Positions 20,668-64,000 of a stretch of 64,000 nucleotides of DNA are shown here, piece by piece. The DNA comes from Medicago truncatula (lineage: Eukaryota; Streptophyta; Magnoliopsida; Fabales; Fabaceae), in assembly GCF_003473485.1 (NCBI RefSeq), contig NC_053043.1, positions 4,102,001 to 4,166,000 of the forward strand. The letters are read 5' to 3'. A program made the position numbers and the translations under genes. Each line of letters begins with the position of its first letter. The stretch's first letter is position 1. Below the pieces are notes generated by a model. That model did no database searches and was not told the origin of the DNA. It saw only the letters and a list, made by a program, of their open reading frames with translations.

Positions 20668-20675
20668 CTTTTATA
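20668..20675 (-). promoter_or_regulatory. TATA box of the E6-like gene
   Basis: TATAAAAG on the minus strand lies 73 bases upstream of the chosen ATG. Transcription would then start near 20640, giving a leader of about 45 bases. Confidence 0.6.
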
Positions 20676-26086: not shown

Positions 26087-26262
26087 AGCTGGCTAGCTGG
26101 CTTGACTTGAACAATCAATCTCGTGTCGATTGAAGATGTGCTGAGCTGGCTTGACTTGAACAATCAATCCCATGTCAACTGAAGACGTGCTGAGCTGGTT
26201 GGCTTGACTTGAACAATCAATCCCATGTCGACTGAAGACGTGTTGAGTTGGCTGGCTTGACT
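26087..26262. repeat. Tandem array, 49-53-bp unit
   Basis: The phrase CTTGACTTGAACAATCAATC recurs starting at 26101, 26150 and 26203, with a partial fourth copy at 26256. Each is followed by TGTC(G/A)A(C/T)TGAAGA(C/T)GTG and GAG(C/T)TGG. The units lie in the U3 part of the solo LTR. Confidence 0.85.
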
Positions 26263-26289
26263 ATGAAATGGGAATGGTCTACCCATGCC

Positions 26290-26530
26290 AGTCCACAGTC
26301 CACCAAGCGTCAAGCCTGTGAAGGCGTAGACGTTTGTTCTTTAAACCGATCGATCCGTACCAGTCCACAGTCCACCAAGCGTCAAGCCTGTTAAGGCGTA
26401 GACGTTTGTTCTTTAAACCGTAGACGTTTGTTCTTTAAACCGATCGATCCGTACCAGTCCACAGTCCACCAAGCGTCAAGCCTGTGAAGACGTAGACGTT
26501 TGTTCTTTAAACCGATCGATCCGTACCAGT
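26290..26530. repeat. Tandem array, 72-bp unit with 22-bp internal duplication
   Basis: AGTCCACAGTCCACCAAGCG starts at 26290, 26362 and 26456, with a partial copy at about 26527. The second unit is 22 bases longer because GTAGACGTTTGTTCTTTAAA is repeated. The units end in CCGATCGATCCGTACC. They lie at the distal end of the solo LTR. Confidence 0.85.
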
Positions 26531-26873
26531 TCAGTACCTATATGATAGGATACAGATTCACCAATAGATAGAAGAACTAAGAAATATGTATAAATGTGTA
26601 ACCAACTAGTGCACCAATTAGTAATGCAAGATTGAAGTTGCGGATCCCCCAATAGTTCAGATGTGCATATATACTCTTAATTCAATAACCCAAAAAATGG
26701 GGTGTAAATAAAAGAAGCAAACTCTAAAACTTATGGAATATGCTTCTTGAAGCACCAATTTGAACATTCCAAAGGCCTCCAAATCCTATGAACACTACAT
26801 CTGTATATATTCAAACGCAAGCCAAATAATTTTTCTGTTAGGATCAAAATCCAACAGAATAATCGTAAATAAC

Positions 26874-27581
26874 TCATTTTTTATAATTTAGTACCATGGT
26901 AGATCTTCTAACAGGAGAAGTGAAACATTTTACTTCAGCTTTCCCATCCTTTATAAGCATAATGTGACTTTTCTTGGCAATGCTTCTTGTTAGCACCCTA
27001 CTACACAATTTACCAGTATCATCTACATTCTTCTTCTTGATACATTTCTTATCCTTGTGGTCACTTGATAATTGGTCAAACTCCAATTTCTTTGCGTAAA
27101 GTGGAGACCTAACACTGCCTGGCTCATGGGTAGGACCAAATTCAAATACCCTCATCAAAGATTGACTATTTTTAGCTGCAGCAACACTTGAGACTCCATT
27201 TTCACCATTAGAAATCACGGCAACCTGTAGTTGAGACAAATCAAGACTCGCAATGTTGTCATTACCTTCCGGTTCCATATCTTCCTGCAAAGTTTCATCA
27301 GCTGCTTTTTTGTGGGATGAAGCATTTGAGTTGTCAAGATTTGAGAATCCATTTTCACCATTATAAATCACGCCAACTTGTGGTAGAGACAACCTTAGAC
27401 TCACAATATTGTTGTTACCTTCAGCTTCCTGTGAGGTCTCATCAGCTGTTCTCTTGTGGGAAGAAGTATTTGAGTTGTCAAAACCAGTAACTTTATCCAC
27501 GTGTTCACATTCATTTCCTGAACTATGAGCTGAATAATTTTTCCAATTGTGTGGAAATCCAACTGAGAAACGGTGACATAC
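26874..27581 (-). pseudogene. Truncated KNL2-like gene: end of SANTA domain plus C-terminal region
   Basis: A last exon begins at an acceptor (TTCAACAG|GTATGTCACC) and encodes about 235 residues to a stop at 26874. Its first residues VCHRFSVGFPHNWKNY match the end of a SANTA domain, found in the plant centromere-licensing protein KNL2. The rest is hydrophilic and contains an internal duplication of about 45 residues (SNTSSHKRTADETSQE... and SNASSHKKAADETLQE...). The tail is basic (CSRVLTRSIAKK, SPVRRST). No exon for the first part of the SANTA domain was found in the ~1.5 kb upstream, which instead looks retrotransposon-like. I therefore call it a 5'-truncated copy. If upstream exons lie beyond an insertion, it could still be expressed. 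The KNL2 assignment rests on a short motif. Confidence 0.5.
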
Positions 27582-27647
27582 CTGTTGAAAGACATTGAAT
27601 ATTTCCAGAAAATTAAATGCGTCACTAACAGGCACAATCACACACAA

Positions 27648-29527
27648 GGGTATTTATTCAATCCATTGAAGATTATGTGTATTTTGTTTCACTAACAGAA
27701 TTGACTTTACCAAAAAGTATAGATTTTGGGTTCCTGTCAGACAAAATTGCCAGACTCTAAATCTCATGTCTGTGCGTGTGTCTAGTTTTACATGACAAAG
27801 TTAGCAAAATAATAGGAGTTTGATTTCTACAAAATAAAACTGAATGATTGATAAACCTCAATTATGGTTTGTGTGGAGTCAATGTGTTTGAACATTGAAG
27901 CTATCACTTGGAGCTTCAGGTTCAAGTTCAACTCACTGTGGATGACCTTTGAACATGAAGCAAACACACACTTATTAAGCATATATATACATATTTCCCG
28001 CTTTTGTTATTTTCGTCTTTACTGTAGCGCTCACTCACTCAAATTAGGACTTCTTTTCCATTCATGGAATGATGAATATATATATTTATGTGCTTGTATA
28101 TATATTTATGTGGACGTTATCTTACCCCCTAGCGTTTGTTTGGTTGACCGTCTCACCATTGAAAAATGGTGTAGACGTGCAGGATCAGGACGCTTGAAAC
28201 GATGTGCGTACCCGAGGCTTAATTTGACACTTCCTCGATTTTCTTATTGCTTGGAGTCTAGTATTAAGCTCATTATGACGTGTCAATAGTTTCTATTTTT
28301 CATTTACTTTTGGATTATGGTGAGAACTTGTTGTTGATATATTTATGAGATTTGAGACATGTTGTTGAGATTATGGATTATCTGATATATATAAGATATT
28401 GTTTGTATTCCGCTGCGAGATTTTATAAATCCGAATTATGCATGTTTTTGAAAATGATGACGTAACATCTTGAACCTTTTGAAATAATTGTTTATTTGCA
28501 TTTAATATTGTTTGTGGGGTTCAAGGATGTTACCGTGCAAGGTGAAGGCAAGGAGCAAGATGACTTTCATCCTCTCTTTGTTTATAGAGTATGTTTTGTA
28601 ATTTCTTGTTTGTATATATTTTCGGTTATCACTAGTAACTAAGCACTCTAAGATTAGGGATTTTAAGATGGACATATTTATTTGTTAGATTTAATTAATG
28701 CAATTTTTTGTTCAGTTATGATCTAAGCTTAGTTTAATTTTCACTTGTTTCGAACGTTCAATGCTTTTCAAACAAGGTGTCATGTTCTATGATGATTGAA
28801 TTTTAGGGTTAGGGTTAATAGATTGGGAACCTTCCTTGATTTGAATGTAATGGGAACATATGAATTTCCTTAAAAGCCTATGCTTTATTATGGTTCCTTA
28901 AGTCTTACATAGTAGGGATATTGTGTTGGTCTAACAAAGAAGGTAGAAGGAATTCCAATTTCAATCGCCGCTAACATTTGAACCAACCATTTTATTTCTT
29001 TCGATCAACTATCACTCTTATTGTGAAACCAATTCTAACCTGCAAAACCATAAACTTTACAACTTTTATTAATAAGTTTATAAGTTGCCTATATTTGAAC
29101 AACAATTCATGTGGAAGCGATAACTTACTACTTTATTACTTGCTACGGTTTGGTGCACTTTCGAAATTTGTCATCAATAATCTGTCAAAGAATGACATTA
29201 GACGATCAGATAAAGAAACTAAATACCGACAATGTTTCAGACCAGCTATAAGCCCACAATGGCAAGACCCATAAAGCCTAAGCCCAAAGAAACTGGATGG
29301 AACACAGAGACGAAGTACACGAAGTCCGATGCAAATCACCGCCTAAGAACACGCATTGACTCCACCTCGACCGTCCAGATCATCATCAACGACCTCCTAG
29401 AAAGGTGATGCATCTCGTTGAGTCTGTTATGTGCCTTCGCACCTATATAAGGTTGATTCAGCACCACCCTCAAGATACACTTCACTTTTACCACATTTTG
29501 CACTTAACTGCTTCTTTCAGATTCAGA
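27648..29527. other. Probable Ty3/gypsy-derived sequence, no gene
   Basis: The part at about 28100-28560 includes TATTCCGCTGCGAGATTTTA and ATGATGACGTAACATC. I associate this with legume gypsy LTRs, but the element ends could not be set. The segment 29180-29527, with a TATATAAGG motif at about 29440, continues after the hAT insertion (30391-30480) and looks like another LTR. All reading frames are short and unconvincing. Confidence 0.35.
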
Positions 29528-36763: not shown

Positions 36764-37586
36764 TGTGAATGTGATGCTTCTCTTCTGCTGCCTCTGCTTT
36801 GCACTCTGCTCTTGCAAAACCAAGTGACGAGTATTAAAGAAGTTTAACTTTTTTCCTTAAGCTCTATCAAATTATGAGTATTTCTAAAATGTCTCTCATT
36901 TAACAAGTTGCTTGGGTTCCGGTGGCAAAGACCTGTTTCCAAATACTTACCCACGGAATACCATATTCGATTTCCAAAAAGAACAATGTTTGACCGGTTT
37001 GCATGCCTCTACGCACGAGCTGGATTAGTCGTCCACTTTTTAGTGGATCGCATACGGTGCGAAAGCCAAAAAAAATCTCTCATTCTCTCAAATTTTATTT
37101 TAGTAAGTTTTTTTTTTTTTTAGGCAAAGTTAAAATATAAAAATTTAATCACTAAATGATCGAATATAAGAACCAACTTGATAGTTTAATAGACTTAAAT
37201 TTTTTTGTGAAATATTCAAAATATTATGAATTTATTTGAAAACGTCCTACAAAATCAATAACTAATTTAGTGATTTCCTCATTTCATTTTAGTCTCTTAA
37301 ATCATAAATAATCACTTTAACCTTTAAGTGATTAAAGTGTCTATAAACCAAAGAAAACTTAAAAGATTAAAGCGAAACTTAATAAACGGTAAGGGAAAGA
37401 TTGATTGTTACCTAAATTTATTTAGTCAAAAATAATCACCTTAACCTTAAGTGATTAGAAATACATATTATGCCTCAAAAAAATATATGCATGGGTTAAT
37501 TTTTTTTTCCCAGATAAATTGCTAATAAACATTTTAAAATCCAAATGCAAAAAAGCATGAAAGTATTTGAAAACACATTCTTAAAC
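36764..37586. other. Promoter side of the coiled-coil gene, no other gene
   Basis: The first ~100 bases should hold the promoter and leader of the minus-strand gene. The rest is AT-rich. A frame at 36908-37123 shows no recognisable protein. Confidence 0.4.
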
Positions 37587-37972
37587 GGCTAAATTGCATT
37601 TTTTGTCCCTTAACTATTTAGGTAGTATCGCTTTGGTCCCTTAATCAAAATTCGATTTATTTTGGTCCTTTAATTTCTCTCCGTTACATATTTTGGTCGT
37701 TTCCATTAGTTTTAATTCAAAAATCTTAGGTTTCTTCATCTTCTTCTCCTCTTTTTCATATTCATATCATCTCCATCAACCTTCAACAACAAGAATCCCA
37801 AAAAAATTCCAAAAGAAAATGAAGAAAACCTGACGTTTTTGACTTAAAACTAACGAAAATGAACAAAGTGTGTAATAGAGAGAAGTTAAGGGACCAAAAT
37901 AAATCGAATTTTAATTAAAGGACCAAAACGATACTACCTAAATAGTTAAGGGACCAAAAATGCAATTTAACC
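37587..37972. mobile_element. Mutator-type MITE, copy of the 20982-21368 element
   Basis: It has the same long arms as 20982-21368 (GGCTAAATTGCATTTTTTG, TAGGTAGTATCGCTTTGGTC) and the same spacer with AACAACAAGAATCCC. The flanking nine bases (TTCTTAAAC and AACGTAAAA) do not match, so one boundary has decayed or this copy is older. Confidence 0.85.
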
Positions 37973-39423
37973 AACGTAAAACTTTAAAAATGCAATATTC
38001 TACACTTTTATTTATCTTCTATGACATTAACAGACACTTGTTAGCAAGACCATTTCTTTAGGAAATGCTAACAAGCGTTCTTAACACACTTGATAATTCC
38101 AGTTTATGTATTTAACACATTAAAACAAAAAATTATTTTTTCTACATAAAAGTTATTAACCGTTTCCATTTTTTTTAATCCTTAACAATGCCAATTTCCT
38201 TTAATATATTTTTTAACCCAATATTCCCATGACACCAATTGCGGTTCCACCTAAAATTCCTTGCAAATAGCTGATCACCCACAATTGCAGTGGTGCTGCC
38301 ACCACCACACAGTCCACAGTAGCCCCGAACTCATAACAATTACACATGTTCTCCTCCAACTGATAACCCTCTAGTCTCGATCAAGTTTATAGCAACAAAT
38401 GAGTTTCAACTCCAAGCACAGCCAGTGTTTATGTTGTTTGGATGTCTTTGGCTTTGGCAATGGAGTCTGTCATAAGCACGGTAAGTTTAAGTCTTACAAA
38501 GACAAGAAAATACCACCAATGGATACCAGGCAGTCGAATAACTAGAAGTATTTGAGTTCAATCCATGGCCGAAGTAATCTATTGCTAGACTTAACTTACC
38601 TTCCAATTGAAAAGGTAAAGGAAAAAAGTAAAAACACCATTCAAAAACATACTATGTCGTATTTCCTCTCTTGTAGAAAAACATAACAAATCCTAATTTC
38701 TCTCCTTTTCTTTAGTATAAATCATATATCAACCGCACATGATCGAAACAAAATTCATAGAAAACAAAATTTTCTCAATTTTATTATTGTTCTTTAATAA
38801 AGTACTATTTTTTTTTTTTTTTTTTGTGGAGGCCGGGATTTAAACCCCAGACCTTGCATATATTATGCATTGTCCATACCAGCTGAGCTAAGCTCACGAG
38901 GACAAAGTACTATTGTTTAACAATAAATAATTCTTTCAAAATAAATTTCATCAAGTTTAAATTTAAAAACATTAAAAAACAACATTACATAGTATTATTT
39001 TTATACAACATGAAATTGAGCGACCTAAAATCTCTTGCTGTCCAATCCACCGCCACATAGGTGACGGAAAATTTCTAGCACCTGGGTTGCAACAGGTATT
39101 GATTTTCATTAACACATGCGGCAATAGACTTTCCAGAGGATCAAGATACTAGTAGTCAATGCTCAAGTAACGGCAATTTGTCCACGAAAGAACCGAAGAA
39201 CCAAAGGTGCACTTTTATTCGTCCAGAGAACCTACATGCGATGAGCCATGCATAGCCAAGATTTTGTGATTCTCACTGCACAAGATTCCTCATAACTGCT
39301 CAACTACAGTTACAATTATTGCTTCAGACTTTCCAAAATAAAACTAATTTTCTAATCAACACTTTCATCTAAATAAACAGATGATTACTAATTTGTTAGC
39401 TTCGTGTAATGGATCATTAGAGA
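37973..39423. other. Intergenic stretch containing a SINE
   Basis: No gene recognised. It holds the tRNA-derived SINE at 38810-38903 and, at the right end, the likely 3' untranslated region of the phosphorylase gene (stop at 39424-39426). Confidence 0.45.
38810..38903 (-). mobile_element. Short tRNA-derived SINE with 11-bp duplication
   Basis: Minus strand: GTGAGCTTAGCTCAGCTGGT (A box), a spacer containing AATGCATAATATATGCAAGG, then GGGGTTTAAATCCC (B box) and a poly(A) tail. An 11-bp duplication AAAGTACTATT (38799-38809 and 38904-38914) proves retroposition. The body is only about 75 bases, essentially a tRNA-like head. Two other copies and one remnant are in the window. Confidence 0.85.
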
Positions 39424-42400
39424 TCAGATAGGGCATTGGCAAGGATCAATTTTCCATGTTCTCTCTGCGTACTCTCGAATGGTCCTGTCACTACTAAATC
39501 TACCAGAGCCGGCAGCACTGAGAATACTCATCTTGATCCACTTCTCTGGTTCAACAAATGCTTTATCGGCAGCAGCCTATTTTGTCATAAAAAATGGTAC
39601 ATTCTGATATAATTAAAAAGAGCAACAATATGGATGATTCGGAGAGTCCTCAAGAATAAGAACGAAGTAGATGGTACCTGTGCCTCAAGGTAACTCCCAA
39701 AATCCGAACCAAGAAGATAGAAATCACTATCGACTTCCACCGTATCACATAAGGATTGAAAGTAGTCTTTATCCCCGAAATATCCATCTCGAACCATCCT
39801 TATATCAGATTAACACATAACTTTAGTCCTTCAACAACTAACTAGTGATAATAAAAATTATCTGCAGTTGTTGATAATCCGCTCATGCTTTCTTTAAAGA
39901 TGAAAGTAAGTTTTCATACCTTAACACACGGGCAAATTGTAGAGGAACTTTCACCGTACCTCCTTTCTCACGCAGTTCTGCTACTTCTTGCACTTTAGCA
40001 CCAAAAAGAAACTGAAACAAGGGCAGATATTTCAAACTGAAGTTGTTAAGACAATACTGTTAACATGTGTACAAGTTTCCAAGAAAGTTCAAACTCGATT
40101 ATAATAGGATATTACAATTATTCGTAAAGCTAAAGCTTGAAATTAAATTTCCTCTCTGAAGCAGCTTTAGATATTAAATAGGAAATTATGAAGCCAACAC
40201 TGAGTTCAGTCCAGGCAACTAAATGATTATATCCCTACTACAAAGCAAGATACTTAGTCATTCAAAAGCACATCTTTCGAGCAGATTTACATTGAGCAAG
40301 TCTTCTAGATAAAAGTAGCTTAAGATATATGCCCAAGTAACTTAATTCCAATGTTTGAGAACTTTTCTCATTTTAAGAGCACATATGGTGTAAAGTAACA
40401 CACAAAACATCATAAGTTATCACTCACCAAATTATCCGGCCCTATTTCCTCAATTATTTCAACGGTAGATCCATCCGCTGTAGCTAAAAGTAAGCATCCG
40501 TTCATCAAAAATTTCATGCTTCCAGTTCCAGATGCTTCATGTCCTGCAGTGCTATAGAATAACTATTGCTATCAATCTGCATAACCCTAATGAAAACTAA
40601 ATTTTGAAAAAAGTCTTCCATGTATAAAGCACTGAGCAAGAATAAGGCTGTCAAGCACACAGCCCACCGTGTCATTTATATGAATACAAACAATATTACA
40701 AAAAGTCTACGAAAAGCCGATTTGAACTCATGAAGTGGTAAATATTTATTTATGTTTGGTTATGTGTCAAATTGATCAAACGTGCGGCAGAAATTCATGG
40801 CGACACAGAAGCTTCAAATTCCTGCTTCACAATTTTCATGGTTCGAGTGCTTTGGGACACGATATTGCAACATGATGTGGTTTCAAACTCACATCCAAAC
40901 AGACGCTTATTACAAAAATTAAAATTTAAAAAATCGATCTTAAAATCTAACACAATTTAATAATATGTGCATAGTAAATATTTAAGACTCTTACTTAGTA
41001 ATAAAACAAACCACCAACAAGATTTAAATATTCTGTAAGCAATCAATAAATTTAAACTGATATAGGTGGCCAGAACAGTAAAGTTAAGACAATTGCACAA
41101 ACATAGCATTACAATTCAAAATTGATGGAGGCAAATCACAATATAAGTTCACAACTCAACACACAAAATAAGCACAAGTTCAAAATAGATAAACAGATTG
41201 ACAAATCAAAAGATTCAAAATTTCTAAAGAGTGAAGCATGGTAGAACTGGATTCCCCTAGGAGCTGCATTCAGCTTGGTAGAGCTAGGTGTCAGCTCATC
41301 AGGGTAGGGTTCATTCACCTTGTTGACCTGTTGGGTGCATTGCAAACTTGCAATGATGGGTTTTCGTTCATGTTGGGACTCGGAGATATGAGGTTGAGAC
41401 TTGATACAAGTTCAAATGCTACTGCAATGTAAATGTTTTGTGCATAATGGAGACTTGTTTTTCAGCTATTGCATTTGAGGGTTTTTTATAAAATAAAACA
41501 ACTAAACACTGCCATTTTAGGCATGTCTAGCTGAAAATAACTGCTCATAAGCACCGTTACCACGTTTCGTATATATTAACAAAAGCAGGAGTGTATTCAA
41601 TGATCCATTTTATGAATCAATGTTCCTAAAATACCCTTTATGTGTCTAACGTTGGCTTTTCAGCTTCCAATGCACTTAGTAGTATTAACTCAAGGTATGT
41701 TTAGAAGAAGAAAAAAAATGTATCTAGTAATTTGAAATGGGGCTTATATTTAGAGACAATTACTTTTCCAAAAGGTGCTTACGGATAAGGATAGAGGTAG
41801 TATTATGTTGTACGCATGTTCAACCGTCATCAAACTTACAATTTTATGCCAGTCTAACCGAGTTACGCAAACAGGTTTACAAGTGAGTTGACTTGATTTT
41901 GATAGAGTCATAAACTCGTACAATTCTGAATTCACTTAAAAGTTTGACAACTATGGTACTACATCATTCTCCACATCTCTGATATTAGAAACTTTCTGCC
42001 CTTTCTTGATCATTACGAACATAACAAATATCAAGCATTATACGAACTAAGGCAAAAGACTAATATACTAGTCAGCAACATTGATGAGCACTAAAATGGG
42101 CAGTATAAGAGATAAGCATTGGAATAACAAACCTTAAATGCTGAGAGAGGTCAGCCCCTGGTATCACCAATTCGGCAACAGAGACATTATAGTCAGGGAT
42201 AAAAACCTACAAAATAGCACAAGTCTAAATAAAACAAGAGGTGTGCCAAAACAAACATAATAAATACACTGAACAGGTCTGTCGTGTCTGAGAAAGGCAA
42301 ACAAATAGAAAGAACAGTAATGTTTTGAAGGAAAAAATTCAAAGAACACTTGCAGCTTACCAATTTCAGAAGATCTCCAATATCAGCATCATTATTTATT

Positions 42401-45400
42401 TTTTCTGCTGCAGCATGACAAAGTTTGATAATCTTCTTAGCAATTTCATAGCCAGGAGCCGCTTTCCCACCAATTATGCAAACACGAGGTACAACTTTCC
42501 TCCTATCATTCTTGTCCATATTCTAAATGAAAAGAAAAGTTAAACGCAAAAGATTAGTTGATGCACCGGTATAACTTGAGATGGAAAGTGATGATCAGTA
42601 TGTATGTAGGTGGAACTACAGCTGCGGGGGATACCAGATTAGGACAAAGGCACAGAATATTATGCACATTTGACAGACTTGTAAAAATGCTTGCTCAAGT
42701 GGACAAAAAAAAGTGTGTAACGTGTAAAAGAAAATTTTATATTCTAATGGAAAGGCATATATTTTGTTTTAAGAACTGTTTTATGAAAGAATGAGAGAGA
42801 GAGTAAATAGGAGAGAGGTCTCCTCTATTAGTAAATGTTGACAATACTCAATGTCACTGTTCTATTAGTAAATGTTGACAATACTCAATGTCTCCACTCT
42901 ATCCTTGTATCCTCCTATTTATACAATCATTCCCCTAACTAACTTACTCCTCTTACTATTATAATTCGCTTTTATTTTACACTAGCGTCTTTCCGCCTTT
43001 TTTATTGTTTACGTTGTTTATAAATTTATCAGATTTTATTATAAAATAATTACTTTAATTTTAATGTATGTGTTTTTAAATTTAAGTTTGAAAAGAAAAA
43101 TATAGATTGTTAAGGGCAGATTTGTAGTAGAAAAATGATGAAAAAAACTAACAGATAGTTTGTTGTCAATTTTCCTATAATTTTGGTGTATGTATTTAAA
43201 TTTAAATTTAAATTTGAAAAAGAATTGAGTTTCTAAGGGTAATTTTGTCCAAGAAAAGGTCCAACCAAACAGTGGTTAACTGGTAGTTAGGAGTTGTCTT
43301 TATGTAAAAGTATAGATGCTAACAACATGAACTAGCATTTATAAATGACTAAGCGCTTTTGGCACCAAGGAACAAACATCTACCTTGAGACAGTCATATC
43401 TGTGGATAATTCCGAAGATATTAAGCAACTGTCTTTTGTATTCATGTATACGCTTCACCTGAACATCAAACATTGCATCCAAACTGACCTGCAGTAAGAA
43501 AGATACAGGTAAAATTAACTTCTATGATTGTAATGACGGAGGAAATAAAATTTTGATAAAACCATTTCACATAAACCTTCACGCCACTCATTGTTTCGAT
43601 GTACTCAGCAAGCCTCATTTTATTAAGCCTTTTAACCTACAATATTGAAAGGACAGAAAGATGTATCAGGGAAGATCATATCTAGTTCTCCTGATCCAAA
43701 GAAAATTCGTTGAAAAAAAACCAAGAAACATTACCATTTTCCATTCTTGTCGGAAATCAGTATTGTCAACATGATCTCTCAATCCTGTCAGAAGGTCAGC
43801 ATTGCGGATCCAAGCTTCAGTGCCTAGCCATTTTGATAAAAGAACACATAAACTGGGATTGCTCACCACAATCCAGCGACGCTGAAAAGTATCAATTCAC
43901 TCTATTATTAGTTGGGGCACAAGCAACCAAACAATTTTTTAATGTTCAAAAGAACAGTGTGGAGGTTTTCAATTGAGCCTAACAAAAAAATATATATCAG
44001 AAATACGCACAGATAATTGTACAATAAACATTGTTAACTTATATGATCTACAACCACTAATTTGGTCCTTGTACACACGCACACATATACAAGGGGGTCA
44101 AACAACAGTTACATATATACCATAATAGTAACAGAAATTTCCTACCTGTGTAACACCATTTGTCGTGTATTGAAATTTTTCGGGCCATAGCTCATAGAAG
44201 TCCTGCAGAGTTAAAGCATGAATTTATTATTTTATGATTTCACAATTGGCCCTGGTGAAGACTATGAAATGATTTAGCACAAAAATTGATACCTTAAATG
44301 TTTTTGTTTTCAGTGTATTTGCGTGTAATTTTGAAACGCCGTTGACAGTATGAGAGCAAACAATTGACAAGATGGCCATTCTTATGCTCTGCAAACCCCA
44401 CCCATAAAAATACAATATATTAATCAGATACTTCCACAAATAAGATATTCAAGAAAGCATGCACTACAATTAAAAATATCTTCAAATTTGCGAATTTTTT
44501 CTCAACATACTTGAATTACTACGCCATAATGCATAAGAATTCAAAAGCATGCATCTTTTATTCAGCTAAAATTTATCTATGCAATAACTTACAGGGAAAA
44601 AGACTGCTCTAAACTATATGATTGTGAAAAAGACTGATTCACATATGCATTATAGTCTTATAGATGCCACTCATTTGTAGGCAATCCTCGCCAGCGAGCC
44701 ATATGCTCGGTCGAGGGTTTGAGCTTAATGCCTAACTCGTTATTGAATTTAGTCCTAAATTTATGTTATGTGTCCTACATCAACAAAACCCAGGATGAAC
44801 GGAAAGGGAGGTAACAATCAACTCCAAATAATACTTGAGAGTTAGCGGCTTAGTCACTGATGTAAATAACCTAAAAGGAAGAATATGAAGGAAAACCAAG
44901 AGTCAGGGTGACAGGAGAATAAGGACTAAATGGATCTCGTTAACGTGAGGTCGAAAACGGTTATAAGAATTGGTGAGTGCATTCAGTGTGAAGGTATTTA
45001 AGTATTTATAGTGTATAGTTTAATGGATGAAATCAGTGGGGTATTTCCAGTATCTAAGTTGACAAGTTCATTTGATCACGGCAAAAAGTTTACTTAAAGG
45101 GAAAGGTCTGAAATAATTCAAGTGAAGGAAGGTACCAAGTTCTCCGAGTAAGATAGTAAAATGATGCAATCTATATAGCACCGACGCTGGCACATTTATT
45201 ACATTCAATAACTTCCATTTTCTCAAATAATTATTGGTGTCTGTGTTTTGGTTTTGATAACAGTATTGTGTCTAGAGTTTGTGTTTGTCTCAGTGCTTCA
45301 TAGGATGCAACAAAACTAGATAGAGTAAGAACCTTTGCAGGGTGAAAAGGTGAGAGGGGTATAGTGAGTGGTAGGTACAATTCTAGTAGTTGCACAAAAC

Positions 45401-48400
45401 AGAAAGTTCAGAAAATTTACTATGCCACATTTCTTTAGAGCCTGCTAAACAGGAGATGCTATCCAAATATGGGATTTATTCAAATTATATTACTCAACAT
45501 TTACAAGTTGTTTGCAAAAGTACCAAACAGGACAACGCTGCAAATGCAGCTGCAATGGATTGCTAAACCTGTTGAACTATCCGTTGATCCATGGAAGTGC
45601 ATGGTAAACTGGCATCTGTTATGATGTAAACATTGTCTAATTCCAAATAGTTCAGGGCATATTTTTTCCATGTGATATTAGAGCCTCAATTCAATAAATA
45701 TCTCAAGAATACCTGATACTATATATTATCCCATGGTCATTTTACATAATTCAAAACATTTAGTAAGCATAAATACCTGACACTAGATATTATCCCATGG
45801 TCATGTTACATATTTCAAAACATTCATAGTAAGCATAATTTCAACCGCATGCAAAAGACAACGCAGCCTACAAAAACATGTTCTAAAATACCTTCACAGC
45901 ACCTTCTTCAACAATAGACATCCGGGACAGTCGGTTGTAATCTAAACCAATCCTTTTCTTCAACTCCTCCATAAAATTAGAATTTATTTCATATAAAATC
46001 TGAAAAGGGCATTTGAAGTACTAAGTAAATAGTTGCATCATAATAAAAAAATAAAAAATAAATAAAAAAAAAAACAGCAAAAAACAATACAGATTCATCA
46101 ATATTTTCACCATGGATCACTTAAGTTAACGTGGAAAACTACCCAAAAAAAACAAGTAAACTAAGCAGACAAATGATTTGATGCTTTAGTCAAACATAAA
46201 AGGTGAAGAAAGGACATCACAATAGAACATTTGTGTTTTCTCGCGTTCAATTTATTGCAGTGAAACACACACACACATATAAGGTAAAATGCTACATAAA
46301 CACTTTAGAAAAGTGCTACATAAAATACAGAAAAGCATGTCTTTCAGGATGTACATATAAATGGCAAGGGAGAAGGCTATAAACACTTATTAAACCAATG
46401 CTGCATAAAATACAGAAAGCGTGCCTTTAGGGAATATACCTGTAAATGGCGAGGGAGAAGGCTGCCAAGAAGATCAACAGGGATTTTCTCTAACCCTTCA
46501 GCTACCACTGTGTGAGTTGTGAAAGAGAAAACCTTGCATACAATTTTCCATGCTTTGTTCCACTCCAAATGCTCTTCATCAACTAGTATTCGCATAATCT
46601 CGGCAATTGAGAGAGATGGATGGGTATCATTTAGATGGAGAGCAACCTAATTCGAGGAAAGTGATAACTTAAGTTGCAAAGACATAATTCTAACACTAGC
46701 AATCAAATAATACATACAATAATCAATTCATCCACTTTCATCAACATAACGAGTCAACAGATAGAAATCACTTTTTTTTTTAAATGGAACCTAATAGTAT
46801 AACCTGGAACTTTTAATAGTCAATAGAAACCTAGTTTCTGCACCATACAACAGAGGAACAATAAAAAAATATACAGGTCCTGGAGGCTATATGGTCTAAT
46901 CAATCACCATACCAACTAGAAATCAAATGTGACAAAACAAAATATTTGACAATGGACCTGTTCTGGCAATTCATCAAAATTAGTATGTTCTTCTTTGAAC
47001 CTTCGGATAATATCTTGCAAAGATGCTGAGACAAAGAAATACTGCTGTTTCAATCTCATCTCCTTCCCCTGGAAATAAAATAGAGTAATAATATGAGAAG
47101 AGGGATTGAATATCATTCGCTCATTAAAAGGGAGAGAAGCATTATACACGAAGAAGTTATCCTAACCATGAAAGATTCATGTGACTATATAAATTTCCTA
47201 CCATGGGTGTATTGTTTCTACAAACTGAAATGTTAACGGAGACGGTCAATAATGTCTGGGAGATGACTAAACAGACTAAATAGAATGTGTGGAATCATAC
47301 CATTGATAGCTTGAGAAACATAACATAGTAATGCATTAAGCATGCATTAAAGAGGAACTGTTGTGAATAAAAGAAGCAAAGGAATACAACTGCCCTTTGT
47401 TAGTTTAACAATTAGCACTAAGTGCTGTCACTGAGCCTTCACCTAAATATTAATCAATTCTATAAATAATGGCAATGAGCATGAAAGAAAAAGTAAATAT
47501 AGAGGCATTTAAATAGATAAGGTCATTTATATGCAACTTTACAAGACAAGGTCAAACAAAATCCGATTATTTGAGAAATATTCTGCAAACTATATAGCTA
47601 GGCTTTGCACACTAATTACCTAATACAATGAAAAAACAAACGAAAACTAAAGTTATCTTAAATGAAAGCAGTGAGTCTCTGACTTTTGCAACCAAGGAAT
47701 CAGCTTTCATCAATCATCGTAGAGCATCAAAGAAAAACTCCGAAGATAAACATTACCAGTTCTGAACAGATAAGAGGAACACTTATATTACTATTTGATT
47801 TTCTAGAAAAAAGGAAACCTGATGAGATCGGTCGTCGGGATACAAAACATTACTTATGGTCTCCGTCCTTTGTCTGTTGACAATAGAATTAATGTAGTCT
47901 CCAGTGTTATAGGCCTCCTACAAATAGTAATAGGAAAAAAAATGTCTCAATAGTTCATCCTAAGACCATATAGAGCAAGAGATATGCCAAATTAAACTAA
48001 AAATAATGGACAATAGCAGGACAAATTTTTATCTGACTCTAAGCTAAGTTCACTGTGACAAAAGGTGTAACCATACAGAGTTCTTGTCCTAAATTGAATA
48101 GTTTATAGTAAAAGCCGTAAAATTACACTCAAGACATTCAGTACTACACCTATATTATGATGTCATTGTGCCAATAATATATGCCTGTTTGTTTGTGTTT
48201 TTTAAAGAGAAAGTGTGTTTTTAAATAAACATTTCAAAATATTTATAATAATATTTTTTTAAATCAAACCTAAATAAACATTTCAAAATATTTATAATAA
48301 TATTTTTTTTACAATCAAACCTAAAAAATTGTTGATTTGGTGCTTTTCTTAGAAGCTAAAGGAGCAGCTTCTGAAATAATTACATAAAAACATTTTTTAA

Positions 48401-51400
48401 TAGTTCAAACAAATGGGCCCCTGGTCTCAAATTTACTTCACACATTTATTCTAAAGAGAAGAATTACCAAATCAAATTGATTACTAGGTTTAGCAGCCCA
48501 AAGCCGAAGGTTGATGGTGTTTCTTGTTCCATAACCAGGTATTGGGTTGTCATAAGCCACAGCTTCCACCTGCAATTAGAGGAATGTGTACGTATTACCT
48601 ACACAGTGTTAAGTTGGGAAAAATGAAGGAAGAGGAGGGATTATTTTAAATCAATGTTGTTTGATCCGGTGGGGAGAGGAAGGGAATGGGGAGGAGTAAA
48701 ATCCCTTACTCAATTTTGACTTCATTCTAATATTGAGTGGATTTTTTCTTAGGGAGGGAGGGGGTGGAGAAGATGGATTTAAAGCCATTTTAAATGCATA
48801 GATTAAATAACCTTACGTACAATCCAACATGAAAGATTACAAGAGTATAAAATTAAATTAGTTTTAAAACCTTCCTCTCCATTTGAGAATCAAATACAGA
48901 ATGCATTATTTCCCCTCCGCTCCTCTCCTCTGAACCAAACACTGCATTAGTGTTCACCTTTCCAGGAGAAACAAGTTTATTTATCCAAATTATCAATGTT
49001 CCAAAGTATAAATCAGATGTAACACAGGTAGAAGTAAGCATAAAACTAAAACTGTTGTAGAAAATGTTCTTGTAAAAAAACATTTCATTCAAACCAGATA
49101 ACAATATACTTATTGTTAAATGTAGTCATAATACCATGGGGGAGTGTTGATTATAGTCACAGAGTCATCATAACTATAATACTTAAGACTGAAAATATGT
49201 TTATCATATCATATTATGTGGGGGAGAATGTACATTTATATGGGTGGGAGTCTCCTAGTTAATCCCTAATTAATAAGGAAGATTAATCAATACAATAAAT
49301 AGTGAAGTTAAAACTAAATAGTCACAACTTTTCAATATCTCAACAATAATCAACATTAATCTTACCGTCTCTCCAGGGATCCAAACTTTAAGTTTTTCTC
49401 CATTCATATCTACCTCTTCAACAGTCCCATAAAACTAATCATTCAAAATAACACAGATGCAGTCAGTTTGCGATTTTAAGGTGACAAGTGAAACACAAGG
49501 CATAACAGAGTGAAGCCTAACAAACCTTCACTTCATATGTTACATGAATCCGCTCTATCTCCCAGGGGTTTCCATAGTTCAGCCAATAATCAGGTTGTTC
49601 GTGTTGAAAGCCATCCACTATGATCTGACGAAACAACCCATACTCATAACGCAAACCATAACTGCAAAATGAAGTTTGATTCCATAAAACTCAACTGACT
49701 GCACCTGTTCTTAAGATAACAAGCATATTGTTTCGAACACAGAACAAATATAATCATACTTCTGTTTGCATGCACAGCTCCAAAATAATTCTGTAAATGA
49801 TACTCCCTCCGTTTCAAAATGAGTGTCGTTTTAGCCAAAAAAAATTGTTTCAAAATGAATGTCACTTTCGGTTTCCAATGCAATAATAACTTTTTCTTTT
49901 CAATTGTACCCTTCATAATACTATGTTACACTACTTCCAAAGTATTATTTTTTCCTTAAAGAAAAACAAACCAATAGTTGATTAGGATAATTTGGTAAAA
50001 TTGCTATGACATTTGACTACTTTATTCCATTCCTTAATATGTGTGCAATTGGCTAAAGCGACACTCATTTTGAAACGGAGGGAGTACTTACATTATGTGT
50101 AATAAAAAACAATGAAAAATGATATAGAAATCCCAAACTCATGTAATGTCAGAATAAAGACGCGCTAAGAATATGTTCAATGATATAGAAATTATTATGC
50201 TATCTAGACACATTGTTATTGGATATATAAATAACACTGTTGAGTTGAGACTTGGATGAGCTTTGAGGCATCATAGCAACTAAATGTGGCCAAAGAACAA
50301 AGCGGTAGATATTCAAGCTTATAAAGCTACCTTCACAGTTCATTATCGATATCTTTGTTTCAAACCAAAAAAAAAAAAATGAGAACTGGAAACTGTATGG
50401 TGAAATTATTAATTTTTCAAACATGTTAGACATATTTTATCATAAAGCTCAACATAAAACCATACCCCCATGCAGGATAGTCCAAAGTTGCTAAAGAATC
50501 CATTTGGCATGCTGAAAAACGAGCAAGGCCACCATTCCCTAGGGACGCATCTCCTTCCTTGTCAAGGAATTAGCACACATGTACGTTAAGGATATAATAA
50601 CCATCTCCATTGCTCTAAGATGATATTTCAACAACGGTAAACTGGAGAATACAAAAGATTAGATTAAACGTGAATAACACCTGCTCAGCCAAAACTTCAA
50701 ACTCAAATCCAAGTTGGTTAAGGGCCTCAGCATATTGGTCTTGGATGCCAAGATTGATGACACTATTTGACAAAGAACGGCCTGATATCCAAAAAACAGG
50801 TGTTTTAAGCATTGGCCACAAGAATAGCATAAGTTGTATACTTTCACAATGAAAACTGTTGATTAACAGTTCACCAATGAAAGAAACAGGTCAGTGTCAC
50901 TTTCATGGTTTGACTTTGCCATTACATGAATCTAAATTTTGCTCTGTTTAAGTTCCTTCCTTCTCTTAGAAATGTTTTTGCTCTGTTTAAGTTCCTTCCT
51001 TCTCTTAGAATTTGGGCTGGATACTACCCACCACTTATATAAACACATTTTCAGGGGATATCTCATTCAATGTGGGACTATTAACACACACCCTCATGCC
51101 CATGATTAGACATCTGGAGTGGCCCAATAGCGGTGACCTGGTAGCAGGTGGCCCAGGGGATCCTTGATAGGCTCTTAACCAATATTATAGGCGGGGACTA
51201 CCCACCACCTTTTTTTTTTTAAACTCGGTATCCGGCCCAAAGACCGACTAATCCGAGGGGTACAAGGTGGGACTTTTAACACTATTTAAATCACTAGAGT
51301 CCTAAAATGTACAGATATGTTTATCATATTTTTAATGAGTATGTTGCCTACACTGCAGATACTTTTATCATACCACAACATAATATGTATAATTAAAAAA

Positions 51401-53985
51401 ACATTCAGTACAACATAATTGGGAGCCTTAGCACAACTGTTAGAGTTGCTACATTGTAAAAGATTAGAGATTATTATAACACGCCAATCATGTTTAGGGC
51501 ATCATTTTATGTACCCATGAGAAACTCAAGTGAGAGGAAGTACAGGCGCTTGGATTTTGTCTTCTTGAAGTAAATGTGAGTATCATGCCAGCGTTCAATC
51601 AACCGATCTCGCACACTATGTGCCAAAGCCTATAAATACAATTGCACAATCAATTTTCGGATGTTAACCAATTAAAAATATGACTAACAGCAGACCAAAA
51701 CGCTTTAATATGTTATTTGACACCCTTGATAACCTACAAGACTGCGATCTCAGGATACCAAACATTACTTTGCTGCCTCCTCGTCTACTGTGCATTCTCT
51801 TTACAACAACAATCAAGCCTTGTCCACTAAGTGGGGTCGGATTGCCAGGGAGGATTTTAATTTTCTTTAATGAAAGCAAAATTGAACTTAATGGGTCAAC
51901 TTCTAATAGTTTTCCATTAAAATTGTGAGGGAGGATTTTAATGAATTTGCAGACATCACAAACTTCCCTTCAATAAACTTGAAATCAATCAAACAAATCC
52001 GCCGATGTGCTAGATTTGTTATGACAGGCAGATTTATAAAAACGATTAAAAACTTTGTTTATACTAAAATTATTATTTAACTTTCTACTACGCTTTTATT
52101 TTATCTCTTTATTTTATTGGCTTTGTCTGGCAAGATTTTTTTTTTATCTAATAGCTACAAAAATAGACTAGTTTGGTAATAAAAAAGATTCACGGGCGCA
52201 TAGTTTTATTTTACTAGCTTATAGCGTTTTTTAAAAAGCTACTTCAAATAGCTTTTTTCATTTTTTTCTCAATTTTACCCTTGATATCTTATTGAAAAAA
52301 AAAATATTAATTAATTAAAAGTATTATTTTATTTTTGAAGGAAAAAGTATTATTTTATGTCATTTCATATTCATCAACTTGTAACCGAAAAAATATTGAT
52401 CAACTAATTCAATAATTTTACCAAACACTACAAATTCAATTCGCTAGTTTCATAATGATTTTCTTAGCAACAATGATACAAGGCTCTTAATAGAAGCTAC
52501 TAAACTAGCTTGCTTGTGCAGCAAGTGAGCTCTTAACTAACTTCTGACTAACCAACTACTTGCTTTTTTATAGTATATGCCTAACAAAGACTGCGCATCA
52601 AATTTATTGGAAAGAGAGGGTGTGCACAAAAAAATATGAATCTATTGGTGGATTAAAACGAGGGTATAATAGGGAGAAAAAAAACTCCAAAAATCCACTT
52701 CCTTATTTTGAGTGTACCATTCTAAAATGACACTTAAAAAAGAATGGAGAGAGTAATTAATTAGGTGAAAAATAAAGGTTTAGTAGACAAAATAGTGATT
52801 AATTTTAAGCAAATTTTTGTCAATTTTTTCAAAAGCTCTCTCCATACAAACCTATTAAAAGCTAACTTATATGGACTTTTATGCAAGTGAAAAACCATAA
52901 ACTTATTTTAATTGTCCATAAATGGCATCTAAATAGAACAAATTTTTCTTTCTAAAATGACACTTAAAAGGAAGGGCCGGACTATTGAGATATATTCAAG
53001 CTAGGCCATGCAACAACACTAATACTCTTACGGAGAGTGTCTCGCCTATTTGTGTCCAACAAGGCTCGATGGATTAGTCACCACAATTGTACATGGAAAA
53101 TGCCAAATTTTACCAATAAGTCTATGAGAATGTATCATTTATTAATTATTAATTACTAAATAACATGATTGACTAATGGCATTTAATCCTCAAAAAACTA
53201 AAGATATGTTTATATAAGATTTAATTTTTTTCAACTAAGATAACAGGAGTATAAGCTAGTAAAAAAGTTATAAGCTGATGAGAAAAATTTATTACCAAAA
53301 CATGTCTATTTTAGTATAAGCTATAAGCTGATAACATAAACAATACCTGATACGCTTCATAATCATCAAAACTAAACCGTGACCTCGCCACAGTATACTC
53401 AACATGATGCAGAATATCTTTCTGAAGACTAAACGGATCATTTTTCAAAAACCCATCCATTAAGCTAAACATTCTCTCTGCTTTCGCCTTCCGCTCTCCA
53501 AACCCTTCCACCAACCCAGCTCTCCTAACCACAATCCCACGGTTCGCCGTCGACACAGAAACCTTCCCGCCGCCGTCGCCATTACCACCGATAGCCTCCG
53601 TTAAAGCTCGTTTGATCCTCTCCAAATTCTCATCATCCTCGATCTTGTTTCCATGGGAATCAGTAACGAAGAATTTTTTGGTGAAGTAATCGCCTTCGAA
53701 TTCAACTGTGGCTTTGTCAATGGTGAGACCGAGGATTTTGAAAACTCTGGTGATGATTTGGAGAAGACCGATCTTGTTGCGAGCGCGGATGAGGAAGGCG
53801 GTGGAGTTGTCGGAGGTGGAATTTTCGACGGTGATGGTTGATGACGTGGAAGGAGATGAAGCAGAAACTCGTAAACGGTTGTTTGGTAGAGCGGTGGGGA
53901 AGTGGATGGAAAATGGAGGGAAGGAAGTGAGTGGATTTGGAAATGAGAGAGTGTTAGTGAGGAGAGGAAACGAAATGGTTTGCAT
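39424..53985 (-). CDS. ACT-domain alpha-1,4-glucan phosphorylase, plastid-targeted
   Basis: Twenty-two exons encode 989 residues: 53985-53347, 51629-51515, 50781-50681, 50557-50466, 49661-49526, 49434-49366, 48569-48468, 47917-47819, 47068-46958, 46646-46440, 45999-45892, 44388-44293, 44202-44146, 43881-43735, 43636-43577, 43488-43384, 42522-42361, 42206-42133, 40551-40428, 40011-39920, 39798-39678, 39576-39424. Residues 1-55 are a Ser/Thr/Pro-rich plastid-type presequence. Residues about 61-133 form an ACT domain ([31 protein letters not shown]). A full glycosyltransferase-35 domain follows: [59 protein letters not shown], and [10 protein letters not shown] with the PLP lysine near K840. The enzyme converts terminal glucan residues and phosphate to glucose-1-phosphate, reversibly. 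The ~80-residue insertion of classical Pho1 is absent after LLPRHLQ. ACT domains usually bind amino acids or similar ligands, so allosteric control is inferred. Confidence 0.96.
42824..42892. repeat. Two-copy tandem duplication, 37-bp period
   Basis: TCTATTAGTAAATGTTGACA plus ATACTCAATGTC occurs twice in intron 16 of the phosphorylase gene. Confidence 0.9.
45709..45837. repeat. Two-copy tandem duplication, ~64-bp period
   Basis: ATTATCCCATGGTCAT followed by TTCAAAACATT and AGTAAGCATAA occurs twice with a few mismatches, in intron 11 of the phosphorylase gene. Confidence 0.9.
46294..46463. repeat. Tandem duplication of an exon end and its splice donor
   Basis: The ~85-bp segment 46379-46463, which includes the last ~24 bases of phosphorylase exon 10 and its donor site, is repeated with about a dozen changes at 46294-46378, immediately downstream in transcription. 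In the intronic copy the exon-end sequence CAG|GTATAT has become TAT|GTACAT, a weaker donor. Confidence 0.85.
48222..48321. repeat. Two-copy tandem duplication, 49-bp period
   Basis: TAAATAAACATTTCAAAATA followed by TTTATAATAATATTTTTTT and ATCAAACC occurs twice, in intron 7 of the phosphorylase gene. Confidence 0.9.
49803..50084. mobile_element. Stowaway-type MITE in phosphorylase intron 4
   Basis: The ends CTCCCTCCGTTTCAAAATGA and the complementary sequence ending GAAACGGAGGGAG are flanked by TA (49801-49802 and 50085-50086). The arms are long: GAGTGTCGTTTTAGCC pairs with GGCTAAAGCGACACTC. It is non-coding. Confidence 0.92.
50937..51010. repeat. Two-copy tandem duplication, 39-bp period
   Basis: TTTTGCTCTGTTTAAGTTCC followed by TTCCTTCTCTTAGAA occurs twice, in intron 2 of the phosphorylase gene. 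Confidence 0.95.
51040..51285. repeat. Dispersed repeat fragment in phosphorylase intron 2
   Basis: This segment is less AT-rich than the surrounding intron. It carries GACTACCCACCACC and a near match (ATACTACCCACCACT) about 130 bases apart, and GGTGACCTGGTAGCAGGTGG. The composition break suggests an inserted repeat, but its class and borders could not be settled. Confidence 0.35.
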
Positions 53986-58832: not shown

Positions 58833-60348
58833 ATGGGGGTAGACTACTACAAGATTTTGAAGGTTGACAAGAATGCCACAGAAGAAGAGTTGAAGAAAGC
58901 TTACAGAAAACTTGCCATGAAATGGCACCCTGATAAGAATCCCTCAAATAAAAAAGACGCTGAAGCCAAATTCAAAGAGATATCCGAAGCTTATGAGGTA
59001 ACATTACGTTTTCTTTAATCTCTGTTACTAGTTGTCGTTCTAACTCATAGAAATTCTGATCTGAATATGATTTATTTGATGAAGGTTCTAAGTGATCCAC
59101 AAAAGAAAGCAATTTATGATCAATATGGAGAAGAAGGACTTAAAGGGCAAGTACCACCACCTCAAGATGCTACATTCTTCCAAAGTGGAGATGGGCCAAC
59201 AACGTTTAGGTTCAATCCAAGAAATGCAAACGATATCTTTGCAGAGTTTTTCGGGTTTTCAAGTCCGTTTGGAGGAATGGGAGCTGGTGGGAATGGAATG
59301 AGAGGTGGAGCAAGGTCCTTTGGTGGAATGTTTGGTGGTGATGATCATATGTTTTCTTCATTTGATGAAGGTAGGCCTATGCGTCAGCAGGGTCCTCGCA
59401 AGGCAGCTGCTATTGAAAATAGATTGCCTTGTAGTCTTGAGGAACTCTATAAAGGGACTACCAAAAAGATGAAGATTTCAAGGGAAATTGCAGATGCAAG
59501 TGGGTATGTATTATTTGCATAAAATTTCATTCCATTCTATTTATTGTTAGAGTCTAACCTTTTAGCAATTAACAATGTTATTTGTTGTAAATCACTACAT
59601 GTTGGTTGATTATTCTAAACAGTGTTACTATGAAGCATTAGCCATGCTTCACGTCCGTCACCAACATGTATATTTACACTGAATTATATAAATATAATTT
59701 TCTTAAATTGTTAGTGGTGTCGGCGTGTCAGTGTCCGGGTCGTGTTCGGTGTCCGTATCCGAATCCGTGTTTTATTGACTAGATCTAATTATCAATGTAG
59801 ACATTAAAATAGGATATCAATGAGTCTTATGTTTAGGAAATAAGGTCCAGTTTTGGCTGAATTTTTTGCTGGTTTGATTAAATTTGTCTGGTGGTTTATC
59901 TCTTTGCAGGAAAACTATGCCAGTGGAGGAAATCTTAACAATTGAAGTGAAACCAGGTTGGAAAAAGGGGACAAAAATCACATTCCCTGAGAAAGGAAAT
60001 GAGCAACCAAATGTGATACCAGCAGATCTTATATTTGTTATTGATGAGAAACCACATGGCGTATTTACAAGAGATGGCAATGATTTGGTTGCAACACAGA
60101 AGATATCACTTGCAGAAGCTTTAACAGGTTACACTGTTCGTCTCACAACACTAGATGGCAGGGTTCTGAATGTTCCTATTAACAATGTGATTCATCCTAG
60201 CTATGAAGAGGTTATTCCAAAGGAAGGTATGCCTATTCCAAAAGATCCTTCAAAGAAGGGTAATCTTAGGATCAAATTCAATATCAAGTTTCCAGCAAGG
60301 TTGACTTCTGAGCAGAAAATTGGAATCAAGAAACTTCTGGCACCGTAG
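58833..60348 (+). CDS. Class B DnaJ/Hsp40 co-chaperone (gene 1 of a tandem pair)
   Basis: Three exons, 58833-58997, 59085-59503 and 59910-60348, encode 340 residues. The start is [11 protein letters not shown], the conserved J-domain opening; 30 upstream in-frame codons are leader. The J domain covers residues 1-67, with the HPD tripeptide at 32-34 in WHPDKN, which stimulates Hsp70 ATPase. A Gly/Phe-rich linker with many Met-Gly pairs follows (about 90-150). Then come two beta-barrel client-binding domains ([36 protein letters not shown]) and a C-terminal dimerisation part ([14 protein letters not shown]). The DnaJ zinc finger is absent, as expected for class B (human DNAJB1-like). No targeting signal is seen, so it is cytosolic or nuclear. 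The length is normal. Confidence 0.97.
59712..59772. repeat. GTGTCNG-type simple repeat in DnaJ intron 2
   Basis: A GC-richer stretch contains irregular repeats of GTGTC(A/C/G)G and TCCG (GGTGTCGGCGTGTCAGTGTC; CGGTGTCCGTATCCG). It is a short minisatellite-like tract in an otherwise AT-rich intron. Confidence 0.6.
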
Positions 60349-62431: not shown

Positions 62432-63761
62432 ATGGGTTTGGACTACTATGAGATTTTGGAGGTTGACAAGAATGCCACAGACGATGAATTGAAGAAAGCA
62501 TATAGAAAACTTGCCATGAAATGGCACCCTGACAAGAATCCTGACAATAAGAATGATGCTGAGACTAAATTCAAACTCATATCTGAAGCATATGAGGTAT
62601 ATGTAACTTCATCTTGTTTTTAGTTTAGTTCAATTGCTACAAAACTATGGTCAACCTGTCATTATTGATGTTTCTGATGATGTTGTTAGTTACAGATCAG
62701 ATTGCCTTGTTTTTCTGTTTTGGTCAGATTTTTTGTTTGTTTATGTTGTCCATTTTCTTTTGGTTTATGTTTAAGCCTTGATTGATTTTAGCTTATAATG
62801 ATGATTAATTTTATGTGTCATATTGAGATCCAATTTGATGGCTATATTCTGTAATATACAGTCGGAAGAAAACTGAGGATCCCCTTAGAATGGTCAAAGA
62901 ATTTTATGAATTTAGGACTTTGACCCTTACCAAAATCCTCAATTTTCAATTTTTTTCCTTCATTATCCAATCTGAATGTGGCTTTATTTGTGATATTCTA
63001 AGTACGGATTGCCATGTAATGTTACCTTGGTATATGGAAAAACATATTTTAGTATAGGTCAAACTCTTAAACTGATCTTAGTTACTTCAAAGGATTCTCT
63101 ACGCAGTTTGCACGATAATGTTACCTTGGTTTTACCAAAATAAAAGAATTGTGCGCTGTTGAGTCAGTTAGTTTCTTACTACTTAGTTTCCATCATTCAG
63201 TAAAATTTCAATTTCAGTTAGTTTTCATCAATTCATGCACAAACTCTTTGTCTATCCATGTTTGTGGGGATGTACAAAACATGAAATGTTCACAGAATCT
63301 GACTTAGTATATTGATTTGGTTTCATGAAGGTTCTAAGTGATCCGCAAAAGAGAGCAATTTATGATCAGTATGGAGAAAGCAACCTTAAAAATGGAATGC
63401 CTACAGCAGGTGACAATGCAGCTCCATACTTCCAAACTCATGATGGCAGAAGGTTTAGGTTCAATCCCAGAAGTGCAGATGGCATATTTGCAGAAGTTTT
63501 TGGCTTTTCAAGCCCTTATGGAGGAATGGGAATGAGGGGTGGCGGCTGCAGAGGCATGGGCATGAGGGGTCAGTCGTGGGTGTCCAGGTCTTTTGGCGAT
63601 ATTTTTGGCAAAGATGTATTTGGAGAAAGCAGACAAACGAGTCAAGCTCCGAGACGCAAGGCACCTCCCATTGAAAATAAATTGCCTTGCAGCCTTGAGG
63701 AACTTTATAAAGGCACTACCAAAAAGATGAAGATCTCAAGGGAAATTGCATACGCAAGCGG
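62432..63761 (+). CDS. Class B DnaJ/Hsp40 co-chaperone (gene 2, cut by the window end)
   Basis: Exon 1 is 62432-62596 and exon 2 is 63331-63761. The third exon, carrying most of the client-binding region, lies beyond base 64000. The 198 residues present begin [11 protein letters not shown] and keep HPD at 32-34. Intron positions and phases are identical to gene 1 (after SEAYE, and inside the Gly codon after Ser). Exon sequence is close to gene 1, for example [20 protein letters not shown] is the same. The Gly/Met-rich linker differs more ([17 protein letters not shown]). Intron 1 is 734 bases against 87 in gene 1. This is a tandem duplicate in the same orientation. Confidence 0.95.
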
Positions 63762-64000
63762 GTAAATGCTCTTCTCCGCGCTTTTTAATGAGCAGAATGG
63801 GTGTTTTTTTGTTGGATTTGTTGATATATAAAGTTTCAATACATTTCTAACTGGCAGTGTAAATTAGTTTTACACTGAAACATATTGCCACATAAATCAA
63901 CTTCGCAACTGCATTTTACAATAACTGCAAAATACAAGATTCTCATTAGACGTTACTTACTGTGTATTCCTGTTCCCTTTCGCTTGTTATGTGTGTTTGC

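Follow-up and report, generated by a model that had tools for sequence, protein, structure and literature searches.

PHO3 of Medicago truncatula, a probable plastid-targeted third alpha-glucan phosphorylase with an N-terminal ACT domain resembling that of GlnD

In a 64,000-nucleotide stretch of Medicago truncatula DNA (the window) we found a 22-exon gene that is almost certainly the legume PHO3, a member of the third, plastid-targeted lineage of eukaryotic alpha-glucan phosphorylases, and bears a single N-terminal ACT domain of the GlnD/ACR type. The gene is a further member of a family that is already described: PHO3 of Lotus japonicus was reported by Qin et al. in 2016 as a plastid, ACT-bearing third phosphorylase and considered orthologous to Chlamydomonas PHOB/STA4, having first been noticed in Jatropha (Wu et al. 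2015, as cited in PMC5005325). The novelty that the preliminary description of this DNA implied for the ACT fusion therefore falls away, as does that of regulation by amino acids, which the 2016 discussion had already raised as a possibility for this enzyme class (PMC5005325). The Lotus paper is cited in a 2025 review of plastidial phosphorylase, whose main text does not use the words 'ACT domain' (PMC12267944). What we add is modest, namely the subtype of the ACT domain and a quantified divergence of the catalytic half; neither the GlnD-type ACT nor the 21 departures described below were found in the published passages covered.

The splice model runs on the minus strand from 53985 to 39424, exactly the interval given in the preliminary description, and encodes 989 residues, with GT..AG at all 21 introns and with frame and phase continuous across the 989 residues. 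The features are as follows.

39424..53985, minus strand: PHO3 coding region, 22 exons (splice model; phosphorylase families over residues 186-982)
53985-53347, 51629-51515, 50781-50681, 50557-50466, 49661-49526, 49434-49366, 48569-48468, 47917-47819, minus strand: exons 1-8 (splice model)
47068-46958, 46646-46440, 45999-45892, 44388-44293, 44202-44146, 43881-43735, 43636-43577, minus strand: exons 9-15 (splice model)
43488-43384, 42522-42361, 42206-42133, 40551-40428, 40011-39920, 39798-39678, 39576-39424, minus strand: exons 16-22 (splice model)
53347..53985, minus strand: exon 1, holding in a single frame the transit-peptide-like region, ACT domain, linker and first 31 phosphorylase-homology residues
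53863..53985, minus strand: transit-peptide-like region, residues 1-41 (composition; the Lotus PHO3 transit peptide was taken as 41 residues, PMC5005325)
53581..53841, minus strand: predicted ACT domain of GlnD/ACR type, residues 49-135 (NCBIfam, Pfam PF24931, shuffles)
53440..53580, minus strand: linker, residues 136-182 (low-confidence model with strands near 142-156 and a helix near 163-182)
53347..53439, minus strand: start of phosphorylase homology within exon 1, residues 183-213 (alignment to AtPHS2; to yeast GP from 187)
40428..40551, minus strand: exon 19, PLP-lysine segment (Lys840 and Glu832 kept; N838S, G850A, A855S and N856T off consensus)

The fusion of an ACT domain to a phosphorylase within one single-frame exon, as the preliminary description had it, holds, as exon 1 contains both the ACT domain and 31 phosphorylase residues, and these align gap-free and in phase into exon 2 when compared with AtPHS2 and yeast GP. 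The phosphorylase part (residues 183-989) is complete: Pfam PF00343 matched residues 272-982 with an E-value of 1.3e-293 over model positions 1-713 of 713, and TIGR02093 matched residues 186-982 with 1053 bits. A pseudogene reading was rejected since the frame is open over all 22 exons. At the N-terminus the first acidic residue is at position 54, and Ser or Thr make up 15 of the first 48 residues; this transit-peptide-like composition, together with the chloroplast localization of LjPHO3 (PMC5005325), indicates that the protein is probably plastid-targeted.

Elsewhere in the window there is an inverted-repeat element in two copies (20980-21373 and 37582-37974, 88-91% alike, with arms of ~150-170 nt). 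Rfam MIR5298 matches the minus strand of both copies, with 86.3 and 78 bits; this microRNA family lies here within a repeated hairpin element. Two adjacent DnaJ-like stretches on the plus strand (59019-60348 and 63316-63765), whose translations look alike by eye, are perhaps a tandem duplication; DnaJ_C was strong at 59878-60348 (E-value 4e-33), weak at 63316-63765 (0.008, below cut-off) and absent for 59019-59522. An open frame on the minus strand (26874-27653) had a weak SANTA-domain match (0.005, below cut-off) and contains within it a 95-nt direct repeat whose copies are 81% alike, and tandem repeats with units of ~49-53 and 94 nt adjoin it (26092-26584). The open frame at 919-1308 matched an Ssb-like OB fold (1.7e-19), and a 288-residue minus-strand frame (19804-20670), Asn/Tyr-rich and with a signal-like start by eye, had no Pfam match at an E-value of 0.01.

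A profile search for the ACT domain, which the preliminary description had proposed as a check, gave a divided answer. The generic Pfam ACT model did not reach significance against the ACT region (E-value 0.088), and PF24931, the third ACT of ACR9, gave a moderate match to exon 1 (1.9e-4) under its curated cut-off; in NCBIfam, however, five models of GlnD (PII uridylyltransferase) matched with their C-terminal end at E-values of 9.3e-12 to 0.0038, the best being NF003467 (9.3e-12) and TIGR01693 (1.7e-10), and two more followed at 0.015 and 0.034. The only non-GlnD NCBIfam family at E-values up to 10 was a VirB1 model (0.15), and none of ten shuffled versions of the stretch matched GlnD. Pairwise comparisons found matches to GlnD of Sinorhizobium (28.8% identity over 104 residues, 2.5e-8), Paracoccus (28.0% over 82 residues, 2.3e-6) and E. 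coli (20% over 93 residues, 3e-4, or 8e-5 when compared alone) and none to that of Neisseria; by sequence comparison the PHO3 domain resembles the second ACT of GlnD. A Bradyrhizobium row in this comparison stood for the longest frame at its locus and not for the ACT frame, and is disregarded. Searching the M. truncatula genome (429.9 Mb, 42 contigs) with the ACT region, with 13 candidates scored, we found a full match only to PHO3 itself and seven others with E-values of 3e-4 to 0.07. The frames of all seven matched PF01842 at 1.8e-5 or better (one under the cut-off score) and three also matched ACR10_N, each below cut-off; by eye the seven look like plant ACR proteins. Single-sequence models suggested a ferredoxin-like alpha-beta domain in which the expected first strand was not confidently formed. 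The turn that we take to be usually D-R-P-G in such domains reads N-K-I-G in PHO3, compared with D-R-P-G or D-R-V-G in the GlnD/ACR relatives that were aligned. A PDB sequence search with the ACT region gave three matches, the best with an E-value of 1, and a scan of viral_contigs for GlnD to deepen the ACT alignment found none. From these matches we assign the PHO3 domain to the GlnD/ACR type. GlnD is a bacterial glutamine sensor, possibly by way of its ACT domains, and the chloroplast proteins ACR11 and ACR12 resemble it (PMC3173338); since ACR11 was concluded to act differently from GlnD (PMC12702975), likeness to GlnD is not proof of glutamine sensing.

Bradyrhizobium plasmids made up 15 of 57 matching plasmid records, some of them with a stretch whose resemblance to GlnD was confined to its ACT end (query residues 705-860, or 734-860 in one case), and an annotated feature lay under the match in one of the seven rows listed. 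The records concerned by this likeness are a Bradyrhizobium elkanii plasmid (L164) and those of matches H19-H25.

With search patterns taken from the phosphorylase part, we collected the 80 best of 477 relatives in genome_contigs and the 80 best of 142 in viral_contigs. In all 160 of these the match to PHO3 started no earlier than residue 150, so that a prokaryotic origin of the fusion is unsupported among these best relatives, with rarer fusions possible. When the 160 stop-to-stop frames were searched by BlastP with residues 41-181, they gave a single line at E-values up to 1 (0.37), located inside the phosphorylase part, and tBlastN of exon 1 against plasmids returned nothing.

Within M. truncatula, a profile search found 41 PF00343 exon matches in four loci, these being PHO3 in the window, one PHO2-like locus (85% identical to Arabidopsis PHS2) and two PHO1-like loci (~81% identical to barley Pho1), both identities being slightly flattered by the joining of overlaps; the Lotus set likewise has two PHO1, one PHO2 and one PHO3 (PMC5005325). 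Residues 1-182 of PHO3 had no match at E-values up to 1 in the three paralogous loci (8.0-9.5 kb each). Phylogenies with PHO1 and PHO2, also suggested in the preliminary description, placed PHO3 outside the two: a 16-row tree made it sister to PHO1 plus PHO2 (98/96) within the included eukaryotes (100/99), and a 34-row tree, where PHO3 was flagged as a long branch, agreed (94/93); of the 160 bacterial and metagenomic loci, 8 were in the former tree and 28 in the latter. In the 16-row tree, constraining PHO3 with PHO1 (p-AU 4e-14) or with PHO2 (1e-7) was rejected, and with it the reading of PHO3 as a PHO1 or PHO2 derivative, while placement with yeast was borderline and not firmly rejected (0.055); the constraint groups were defined once an initial tree was known. 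The mid-domain L78/L80 insert that defines PHO1, the plastid L-type (PMC5005325, PMC12267944), is absent, as the alignment of residues 183-989 with AtPHS2 and yeast GP shows no insertion of this kind. The term 'plastid-type' in the preliminary description is thus apt as to targeting, for the protein looks plastid-targeted (no acidic residue before 54; a chloroplastic Lotus orthologue, PMC5005325), and wrong if it means PHO1 type (no L78-like insert; trees outside PHO1 and PHO2).

The catalytic half was compared in an alignment of the 160 bacterial and metagenomic phosphorylases with Arabidopsis PHS2, barley Pho1, yeast GP, E. coli GlgP and MalP, in which 163 positions were conserved (at least 97% in the 160 and identical in the five references). 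Against this prokaryotic or metagenomic background PHO3 departs at 21 of the 163. Leave-one-out counts for the references were 2 (GlgP), 3 (PHS2), 5 (yeast), 5 (barley) and 10 (MalP), with denominators that differ somewhat from 163 since these counts require PHO3 to keep the consensus; the fairest yardstick for PHO3 is yeast, Arabidopsis and barley (3 to 5). The three M. truncatula paralogues (two PHO1, one PHO2) each keep 21 of 21 residues. Counted without preference for the reference-like residue in overlapping matches the figures are 21, 19 and 18 of 21, and the value of 21 stands because the five conflicting readings come from matches that extend into introns, beyond a GT or ahead of an AG splice site. 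The departures (consensus first) include G297A, L299F and A300S, in what is presumably the glycine-rich segment; Y530F, N532T, A539G and W543I, in what we take to be the loop beside the catalytic histidine; and N838S, G850A, A855S and N856T in exon 19, which we assume to be the PLP-lysine segment with roles as in rabbit phosphorylase. All 16 catalytic and PLP landmarks, listed on the assumption that positions are as in rabbit phosphorylase, are identical in PHO3 to those of all 160 loci and five references. Departures were not clearly concentrated near these landmarks (P 0.47, 0.16 and 0.04 for windows of 4, 6 and 10 residues), the clustering being marginal at 10 residues only. We read PHO3, from its sequence, as perhaps a specialised rather than a dead enzyme.

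Our best explanation, which we hold at about even chances, is a plastid phosphorylase gated by its ACT domain, for which glutamine is the foremost candidate ligand. PHO3 would be imported into plastids, where its ACT domain, probably dimeric, would bind a small nitrogenous metabolite, and binding would switch the phosphorylase, which keeps its catalytic residues with neighbouring segments altered, between low and high activity on plastid glucan; import, ligand, dimerization, direction of the effect and the activity itself are what we infer. Glutamine leads because the ACT is of the GlnD/ACR type and, among bacterial relatives, is matched best by the glutamine-sensing ACT end of GlnD, which sharpens the suggestion in the preliminary description that amino acids or nitrogen may control phosphorolysis. 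In Lotus, PHO3 overexpression lowered leaf starch and raised soluble sugars and phosphorolysis activity, and a crude E. coli extract with full-length LjPHO3 had 2.5-fold the activity of the control, while purified LjPHO3 was inactive with every substrate tried (PMC5005325); this would be expected if a cofactor or ligand were lost, and the altered catalytic half may also help explain the inactivity. Against simple nitrogen gating, the Lotus starch effect was unchanged by nitrogen supply (PMC5005325), and against the explanation as a whole stand the inactivity of the purified Lotus protein, the degenerate N-K-I-G turn and the conclusion that ACR11 acts unlike GlnD (PMC12702975). The published nitrogen test is mixed, since the starch effect did not change yet overexpressors were seriously retarded in growth under nitrogen deficiency (PMC5005325).

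It is possible, if somewhat doubtful, that PHO3 is instead a near-pseudoenzyme or has changed specificity. Its main role would then be to bind glucan or partner enzymes, as in the multienzyme complex that was proposed for Chlamydomonas PHOB, and the ACT domain would steer this binding. As purified LjPHO3 was inactive, it may not be an ordinary phosphorylase; phosphorylase zymogram bands were unchanged in overexpressors, and overexpression in rice had no effect, which suggests a missing partner (PMC5005325). The 21 departures in 163, against 2 to 10 in the five references and 0 of 21 in the three paralogues, point the same way. However, the intact frame, high family score and full set of landmarks argue for catalysis, departures do not clearly crowd the catalytic residues, and both the crude extract and overexpressor leaves had more phosphorolysis activity (PMC5005325). 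We consider it unlikely that the ACT is a structural or dimerization element without ligand and PHO3 an additional plastid phosphorylase: the weak match to the generic ACT model, the degenerate turn and a Lotus starch effect unaltered by nitrogen fit this, but the domain matches best with the end of GlnD that does the sensing, and Chlamydomonas PHOB is reported with an ACT too, so the domain has been kept for very long (PMC5005325). It is highly improbable that exon 1 is part of a different gene and stays unjoined to exon 2, for although intron 1 is 1.7 kb, the join is predicted from sequence and 15-20 exons are stated for Lotus PHO genes against 22 here, the exon ends in phosphorylase residues that align onward in phase across the junction, and the Lotus orthologue, from cDNA, has the same layout (41-residue transit peptide; ACT-removed construct minus 183 residues) (PMC5005325).

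Returning to the ACT-gated phosphorylase, a bolder and rather speculative version would make PHO3 a plastid nitrogen-to-starch switch, in which a GlnD-type glutamine sensor sits over a latent specialised phosphorylase or scaffold that works only when ligand-bound, the altered half being a built-in off state and not decay. If the GlnD-type ACT does gate the enzyme, it would be a direct allosteric link of glutamine status to plastid starch use in plants. The 21 departures set PHO3 apart from the better-studied PHO1 and give good grounds for assaying the 'inactive' recombinant PHO3 again in the presence of ligands.

Among known systems the closest is LjPHO3, which likewise stands beside two PHO1 and one PHO2, has a transit peptide and an ACT and lacks the L78 insert, and whose construct boundaries (41 and 183 residues removed) fit the M. 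truncatula layout; the 15-20 exons of Lotus PHO genes differ from the 22 here, a comparison made from the published description (PMC5005325). Chlamydomonas PHOB/STA4 is also a plastid phosphorylase with an N-terminal ACT and no L78, in one subclade with PHO3, yet sta4 mutants are described as low in starch whereas in Lotus it was overexpression of PHO3 that lowered starch, a likeness again drawn by description (PMC5005325). PHO1 (barley 5lr8) and PHO2 (Arabidopsis 4bqe) share with PHO3 the GT35 phosphorylase and its catalytic landmarks, but they keep the 21 consensus residues that PHO3 changes, and PHO3 falls outside both in trees. The likeness of PHO3 to the C-terminal ACT of GlnD and to ACR11/ACR12 is one of ACT subtype by sequence, ACR11/12 being plastidic as well (PMC3173338). 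In GlnD, two ACT domains are attached to a uridylyltransferase, and ACR proteins lack any catalytic domain that can be recognised, whereas in PHO3 one ACT is fused to a phosphorylase.
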